The translations under genes were made by a program, and so were the position numbers. Under the pieces are notes generated by a model. That model did not search any database, was not told the DNA's origin, and saw nothing but the letters and a program-made list of their open reading frames with translations. Below, piece by piece: positions 21,315-24,632 of a DNA stretch of 64,000 bases (the first letter of the stretch is position 1; each line of letters begins with the position of its first letter). Source of the DNA: Chloroflexota bacterium (lineage in GTDB: Bacteria; Chloroflexota; Dehalococcoidia; Bin125); assembly GCA_009838735.1 (NCBI GenBank), contig VXQZ01000030.1, positions 62,001 to 126,000 on the forward strand, given 5' to 3'.

Positions 21315-22154
21315 TCAGGCCGTCAGCCTCCGACCTCCCCGGTTCAGATGTCCCCGCAACTCCTCCAGCACAAGCTGGCGACGCGACTCGGTCCAGCCCA
21401 GTTCTCTGGCAATGCCCAGCGCTGGCTGCCGCGTGCCCGACGCGAACGGCCCGCTGGCCTCATGGAACGTGTTGATGTGGACCCGCGACACGCCGGTCTC
21501 CAGAATCCGCTCGGCAAACGCCCGAGCATCGTGCAGCGGCAGCAACGGAGAGACGTTGATTCGCGTCCGGAGTCCGGCGTCACTCAGCTGGCGGAGGGCA
21601 TCGAAGCGGCGATCTATGCTCGCGCACTGGGGCTCGAACCGTTTGCGGATCTCGTCGGAATCGGTGGTGATGCTCATCGTCACGTTGAAGTGCTCGAAGG
21701 TCTTGAACAGATCTATGTCGCGTGTGACCAGCGGGCTGCGAGTGAGCACTGCCAGGCGCGCGCCTCGATGTTCGAGGATCGGCAGCAGTGAACGGGTCAG
21801 CTCCAGCCTGGCTTCAATCGGCTGATAGGGGTCAGTCGCGCTGCTCATCAGGACCGTTCGGCCATGCAGGTTCTGGCGAGAGTTGCGCAGCTTGGCGATC
21901 GCGTTGGTCTTCACCCGTACCCACTGACCCCAGCGCTCGCGCTGCTCCTCCTCGGGCACGAAGAACGCCGCGTAGCAATAGGTGCAGGCAAAGGTGCAGC
22001 CCTGGTAGGGGTTGATGACGAAATCAAGGTCGGCGAGCCGTCCGGTCGGTCGGGCGAGGATGGCGGAAGAGTCGGCGTAGATGACGTCGGCGACACCCTG
22101 GGTGGAGGGTCGGGAGGATGTGGGATTGGGGTCGAAGAGAGAGAGTTGCAACAT
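21315..22154 (-). CDS. SplB-like radical SAM protein (COG1533 type)
   Basis: The 279-residue protein has the radical SAM cluster motif C-X3-C-X2-C in INPYQGCTFACTYCYA. Then come KTNAIAKLR, VLMSSATDPYQPIEARLELTRSLL and LTRSPLVTRDIDL, typical of the SplB-like 'DNA repair photolyase' group. True spore photoproduct lyase function is unlikely here; members outside spore formers have no assigned role. ATG 22154 is chosen because it lies 6 bases after a TTGACT-N17-TACTCT promoter and opens the conserved LQLSLFDP segment. The upstream ATG at 22205 lies in a repeat element and has no ribosome site. Confidence 0.85.
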   Translation of the reverse strand: MLQLSLFDPNPTSSRPSTQGVADVIYADSSAILARPTGRLADLDFVINPYQGCTFACTYCYAAFFVPEEEQRERWGQWVRVKTNAIAKLRNSRQNLHGRTVLMSSATDPYQPIEARLELTRSLLPILEHRGARLAVLTRSPLVTRDIDLFKTFEHFNVTMSITTDSDEIRKRFEPQCASIDRRFDALRQLSDAGLRTRINVSPLLPLHDARAFAERILETGVSRVHINTFHEASGPFASGTRQPALGIARELGWTESRRQLVLEELRGHLNRGGRRLTA

Positions 22155-22189
22155 CTGTGCAGAGTACAGATGTTCTACTAGTGAGTCAA
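22150..22189 (-). promoter_or_regulatory. Leaderless promoter with an overlapping palindromic operator
   Basis: On the minus strand TTGACT (22189-22184) and TACTCT (22166-22161) are exactly 17 bases apart. The ATG at 22154 follows 6 bases later, so transcription would begin at or next to the start codon. A perfect palindrome, AACATCTGT (22150-22158) with ACAGATGTT (22166-22174) around 7 bases, covers the -10 box and start codon. That is the position of a repressor operator. Confidence 0.6.
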
Positions 22190-22199
22190 CCGACAGATC

Positions 22200-22286
22200 C
22201 GTCATTCCAGCAATCGCTGGAACCTCGATCGCAAGCGATCGTTTGCGAGCCCCAGAGCGAGATTCTCAGCGAAGCTGGGAATGACG
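22200..22286. repeat. REP-like palindromic elements, inverted pair
   Basis: Two copies of an element beginning CGTCATTCC face each other: CGTCATTCCAGC-AATC-GCTGGAA at 22200-22222, and the reverse complement of CGTCATTCCCAGCTTCGCTG and adjoining bases at 22257-22286. Between them lies another small palindrome, CGATCGCAAGCGATCG. Related elements occur at 27167 and 49939. The pair sits between two codirectional minus-strand genes and could end transcription of the amidohydrolase gene. Confidence 0.65.
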
Positions 22287-22305
22287 GATTCTGATTGCCG
22301 CCGGG

Positions 22306-24162: not shown

Positions 24163-24498
24163 CTACAAGGGGTCGTCGTCCTCGTCGGGGGAGTCTTCCT
24201 CAGGGAGGGCGGCCCCCGCCTGCGCGGGGGCGGCTTCGAAGAGCTGAGGAGCATCGTGGTCGCGTTCGAAGTGCTGAGGGGCGTCTTGGTCGTAGAGATC
24301 GCGGAGTTTGTGGCGGGCGGCGTCGAAGGGGTCAGTGGCGAGGTAGCGCTGATAGTTGAGTCGCGCGCGGTCGGTGGGGGCGAAGAGTTCGCGCGCGATG
24401 GCGTCCAGGGCATTGAGCCGACGGTAGGCCGGGGCGTTGCTGTTGGCGCGGCGCCAGAGGTTGTCGATGGCGGCTCGGTAGTGGAATGGATTGGGCAT
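24163..24498 (-). CDS. Small hypothetical protein with an acidic tail
   Basis: The frame encodes 111 residues. The first 75 are charged and predicted helical (IDNLWRRANSNAPAYRRLNA, LNYQRYLATDPFDAARHKLR), and the tail ends in EEDSPDEDDDPL. The ATG has AAGG 8 bases upstream. No family is recognised. A run of eight A on the plus strand (24131-24138, U8 in the transcript) lies 25 bases beyond the stop. It is read in the same direction as its neighbours. Confidence 0.5.
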   Translation of the reverse strand: MPNPFHYRAAIDNLWRRANSNAPAYRRLNALDAIARELFAPTDRARLNYQRYLATDPFDAARHKLRDLYDQDAPQHFERDHDAPQLFEAAPAQAGAALPEEDSPDEDDDPL

Positions 24499-24632
24499 GA
24501 CGGTGACCTTCGTGATTGGATGCAGTGATACACATGTTCTGTTTATTGTGTGCTGAATCGGAGGGTTCGTCAAACGCGTGAGGATCGATTGAGGTGGCCT
24601 GATAGACATCGCGACGGTCTACCAGGATTGCA

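Follow-up and report, generated by a model that had tools for sequence, protein, structure and literature searches.

The SplB-like radical SAM gene in the window (the whole 64-kb stretch of Chloroflexota DNA that was analysed) is highly likely to be a repair-type gene transcribed from a leaderless, LexA-repressed SOS promoter, as judged from sequence comparisons. LexA is the bacterial repressor that is lifted in response to DNA damage, and the SplB-like promoter very probably carries an ordinary LexA site, with LexA as its regulator. An earlier note on this DNA had proposed that a repressor controls the gene and that DNA damage is involved, both of which agree with the sequence; its unknown regulator is not supported, and a known one, LexA, takes its place. 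A working LexA box is now available for a Chloroflexota genus. The features discussed below are collected in Table 1.

Table 1. Positions of the promoter elements, predicted boxes and genes in the window
Feature	Position	Strand	Remarks
SplB-like radical SAM protein, 279 aa	21315..22154	minus	PF04055 6.7e-15; CxxxCxxC
Start codon ATG and putative transcription start (leaderless)	22152..22154	minus	ATG in 14/14 promoters
-10 element TACTCT	22161..22166	minus	17 nt from -35; 4-nt overlap with the box
-35 element TTGACT	22184..22189	minus	TTGAC kept in relatives
Predicted LexA-type SOS box AGAACATCTGTACT	22163..22176	minus	core GAAC-N4-GTAC at 22164-22175
Reported 9-bp palindrome	22150..22174		probably incidental, apart from the arm within the LexA box
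'MPNP...EDDDPL' family copy	24163-24498	minus	2.4 kb from the SplB-like promoter
Second, weaker box AGAACATGTGTATC	24527..24540	minus	precedes the 24163-24498 gene, behind TTGACG-N17-CACAAT

We compared 14 promoters of the SplB-like gene, namely that of the genome under study, 12 from the same genus and one from the same family (a further relative, L013, is truncated by a contig end). The layout read by the earlier note on the minus strand, TTGACT-N17-TACTCT-N6-ATG, is real, and the letters and coordinates of both the promoter and the palindrome, AACATCTGT-N7-ACAGATGTT, proved correct. The spacing between the -35 and -10 elements is kept in most of the 14 promoters, and the -10 columns read T14 A13 C9 T11 C6/A6 T12. 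The -10 element ends 6 nt before the ATG (GCACAG on the minus strand), leaving no room for a leader; most relatives are alike in this respect, with the ATG lying 6–10 nt past the -10 element in those that are readable and 6 nt past it in most. By sequence, then, the promoter is leaderless, as the earlier note had it, which rests on the promoter layout, on the kept ATG and on in-frame stops upstream of it in four relatives. Because of these stops, and because the ATG at 22154 is kept throughout, we rejected the longer frame in the ORF list, which starts at 22205 and would contain the promoter. The base preceding the ATG is C in 11 of the 14 promoters, and the resulting C-A at the start codon would fit a transcript whose first base is the A of the start codon. 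Immediately upstream of the -35 hexamer, at 22196-22292, lies an element bounded by inverted ends, ATCCGTCATTCC...GGAATGACGGAT, which is absent from the relatives and has only a partial, 37-bp second copy in the genome; it is possibly a MITE or the terminator hairpin of the upstream gene.

Besides TTGAC, TANTNT and the ATG, the footprint across the 14 promoters conserves a block, AGAACATNTGTACT, which consists of the left arm of the palindrome and its flank (left and right are given in the orientation of the gene, i.e. on the minus strand). The columns G-A-A-C-A-T-N-T-G-T-A of the box hold 1.3–2.0 bits each, except for N with only 0.5 bits, compared with 0.9–1.6 bits for the TTGAC columns and 1.4–2.0 bits for positions 1, 2 and 6 of the -10 element. 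A chance origin of the promoter together with the left arm is therefore unlikely on sequence grounds. The predicted box, AGAACATCTGTACT, includes the left arm and runs into the beginning of the -10 element, and it is kept in the promoters of the orthologues, five of which score weakly. That the conserved arm is promoter sequence only, with no regulation behind it, is extremely improbable: the overlap of the box with the -10 element explains part of the conservation (TAC), but GAACAT sits in an otherwise free spacer and is nevertheless among the most conserved stretches, and the letters of the box turn up at further genes with a different placement relative to the promoter.

The palindrome itself fared differently from its left arm. 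By itself it is weak evidence for an operator; the window contains 33 inverted repeats with perfect 9-bp arms and a loop of 0–20 nt, versus ~12 expected from order-1 Markov simulations. No second copy of the whole palindromic element was found in the 3.15-Mb genome at up to three mismatches, so that the further copies near regulated genes for which the earlier note had called are lacking for the palindrome, whereas the left arm recurs in promoters genus-wide. The inner columns of the right arm, just upstream of the ATG, hold 0.2–0.4 bits across the 14 promoters (the C at -1 excepted), and the three right-arm bases closest to the spacer are unconserved. Pairing between the two arms is no better than when arms are permuted among the genomes (p = 0.23; p = 0.50 without the genome under study), so that the arms are neither both conserved nor co-varying, and the spacer between them varies in the relatives (7, 8 or 10 nt). 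On the grounds of non-conservation, the permutation result and the single copy in the genome, we rejected the palindrome as the operator. It is very unlikely that the full palindrome serves a dedicated, unknown repressor, even with its perfect 9-bp arms here, a perfect palindrome with other, compensated letters in one relative (AACATGCGT-N7-ACGCATGTT in L006) and a near-perfect one in another (L011). The mirror-image right arm is probably due to chance, being mostly the start-codon region and not conserved in relatives; because of the compensated palindrome in L006, the palindrome may have a secondary role in single genomes. Thus, in place of the 25-bp palindromic operator of the earlier note, the conserved site is a 12–14-bp LexA-type box that extends from the spacer into the -10 element.

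To relate this box to LexA, we turned to lexA and other SOS genes of the genus. The genome has one copy of lexA (PF01726 over cut-off; an S24-like region and a cleavage-type AG were recognised by eye), and LexA is present in 15 of 15 genus genomes, in one of which it is truncated at a contig end. Thirteen genus genomes have a box after the -10 element of the lexA promoter. Eight of these boxes read GAAC-N4-GTTC, one is a single-base variant, and the remaining four read GTAC-N4-GTTC, whose reverse complement, GAAC-N4-GTAC, is the form at the SplB-like gene. Perfect GAAC-N4-GTTC sites precede the ImuB-like polymerase genes in all seven cases with a readable promoter, and the recA promoters have a conserved GCAC-N4-GTTC together with an AGAAC-type site adjoining the -35 element. 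The same type of box is therefore found at lexA and at other SOS genes (recA and imuB-like); a LexA-type box looked for in the dinB promoter was not found.

A symmetric LexA matrix trained solely on the lexA and imuB-like sites ranked 22163-22176 first in the window with 15.5 bits (runner-up, 12.0 bits). On the 14 orthologous sites, seven scored above 13 bits and five below 8 bits (-1.4 to 7.3). Over other stretches of the same genome, the matrix pointed mainly to promoters of small multicopy genes, a result that speaks to consistency and not to an independent rate, as those stretches had been preselected for carrying the pattern. Genus-wide, AGAACATNYGTACY occurs 135 times with at most one mismatch, versus 33 times for the reversed pattern. 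Against LexA speak the half-site that is GTAC rather than GTTC and the 5 of the 14 orthologous sites that are poor by matrix, as do the more distant relatives and the second SplB-like gene of the genome, described below, where such a box is mostly lacking or not evident. AGAACATNTGTACT could be the site of a non-LexA regulator, for example a multicopy small HTH protein with the site in its own promoter; several of the multicopy genes behind a AGAACATNTGTACT-type site do encode HTH proteins, and sites with inner AT and GTAC differ somewhat as a class from those of lexA and imuB-like genes, which have variable inner bases and GTTC. We consider this very unlikely, as four species have GTAC in their own lexA box, a matrix trained on nothing but lexA and imuB-like sites picks out the GTAC class, and the SplB-like gene family is LexA-regulated elsewhere (PMC3323433, PMC8565304). 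Compared with the LexA/SOS boxes of Gram-positive bacteria (GAAC-N4-GTTC), the predicted LexA box shares the GAAC half-site, the 4-nt centre, the overlap with promoter elements and the occurrence at lexA, recA (degenerate) and imuB-like genes, but differs in having GTAC as one half-site and in sharing TACT with the -10 element of a leaderless promoter. The literature searched held no description of a LexA box for this Chloroflexota genus, which is not proof of absence.

Regulation by LexA would then proceed as follows. LexA would sit on AGAACATCTGTACT, where the spacer between the promoter elements passes into the -10 element, and would thereby block RNA polymerase from initiating. Following DNA damage, RecA-stimulated self-cleavage of LexA would free the promoter, and the mRNA made from the freed promoter would begin with the A of the start codon or with a base beside it. 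None of these steps would need the right arm of the palindrome.

The protein encoded by the gene carries the radical SAM motif CxxxCxxC at C53, C57 and C60, which are invariant, and its predicted model (mean pLDDT 89) has the radical SAM fold, with the spore photoproduct lyase structures 4fhg/4fhc as the best fold match (TM ~0.5); a sequence search of the PDB gave nothing useful. It is closest to the PA0069 and Rv2578c-type families, in each case under the curated cut-off. The PA0069-like family NF033668 is the best curated match, but at 125.3 bits against a cut-off of 360 the protein falls outside it. The nearest named relative comes from 'Chloroflexota bacterium RHO2_bin_60' (89% identity). 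We therefore describe the protein as COG1533/PA0069-like, for which "SplB-like" is right at the level of the superfamily. A true spore photoproduct lyase is not supported: although the fold and CxxxCxxC are shared with that enzyme, the score for TIGR04070 is 23.2 bits against a cut-off of 400, and the catalytic cysteine is lacking. Spore photoproduct lyase has a catalytic hydrogen-donor cysteine ~40 residues past the cluster (C140 in the 4fhc series). The cysteines of the SplB-like protein are found only at positions 53, 57, 60 and 177, and with none between C60 and C177 the hydrogen donor has no evident counterpart. The same genome has a second SplB-like gene (L066, G000:C31:29835-30533), which is 52% identical and has no box evident by eye.

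In alphaproteobacteria the LexA box is GTTC-N7-GTTC, and sites of this form are carried by the alphaproteobacterial homologues among 80 named loci of the SplB-like gene. Exact matches to this type or its complement number 19 in the searched regions, ~50x background and with a few outside the alphaproteobacteria, and the Poisson value overstates their significance because the species are related. Exact GAAC-N4-GTTC is mostly lacking in the more distant Dehalococcoidia and Bacilli relatives, and a scan of the Bacilli relatives for the Gram-positive LexA box gave one exact site only. Control of splB by LexA/SOS has been predicted or reported in alpha- and betaproteobacteria (PMC3323433) and in Bacteroidetes (PMC8565304); a literature search on Rv2578c with LexA found no paper. 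Those genes resemble ours in being SplB-like (COG1533) radical SAM genes with a LexA box in the promoter, but the LexA sequence is another and the gene described here belongs to a Chloroflexota genome and has a promoter without room for a leader. The gene would thus be a further SplB-like gene under SOS control, in another phylum and with a very different LexA sequence. Such recurrence across phyla speaks for a useful function of this poorly understood family of radical SAM proteins after DNA damage, one that would extend to members without the lyase's catalytic cysteine.

Many of the AGAACATNYGTACY sites precede short genes that occur in several copies per genome. We tentatively suggest, as a possibility that falls somewhat short of an even chance, that the SOS regulon of the genus takes in several lineage-specific families of multicopy small genes, most copies having a LexA-type box in the promoter. 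If so, many scattered small genes would be induced by DNA damage together with the lexA, recA, imuB-like and SplB-like genes. Within the genus, a genome holds between 0 and 20 copies of the 'MPNP...EDDDPL' family; of the 30 copies read, all have a GAAC half-site upstream and 17 an exact GAAC-N4-GTWC. Its protein has a conserved acidic C-terminus and a predicted four-helix N-terminal domain; the family gave no match in Pfam or PHROG, nor the domain in the PDB. One copy lies near the SplB-like promoter in the window (Table 1), a closeness also seen in several relatives, and the box preceding it, AGAACATGTGTATC, scores 6.3 bits (rank 26 in the window). Mimicry of the SSB tail by the small proteins (EEDDDP[LW]) was considered and rejected, since the SSB proteins of this genome end in MPFE or QPF and the likeness is unconvincing.

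Boxes of this kind also precede other genes. A second multicopy group behind the box, on other contigs and in other genomes (L051, L041, L091, L093, L084 and L105), encodes proteins with an HTH domain, which resembled HTH_38 in the single member examined. The box also precedes additional small multicopy genes (L035, L039, L060, L062 and L086), some of which share the C-terminal tail NPLDD or EEDDDYP; several of them lie at contig ends, as repeats do. Single genes of other kinds are a ComM/YifB-type Mg-chelatase-like ATPase, by reading, with a AGAACATGTGTACC box 50 nt before its start (L095 in G004), and an unassigned 484-aa ORF, which shares its AGAACATCCGTACT box between two genomes (L092 in G005 and L101 in G001).
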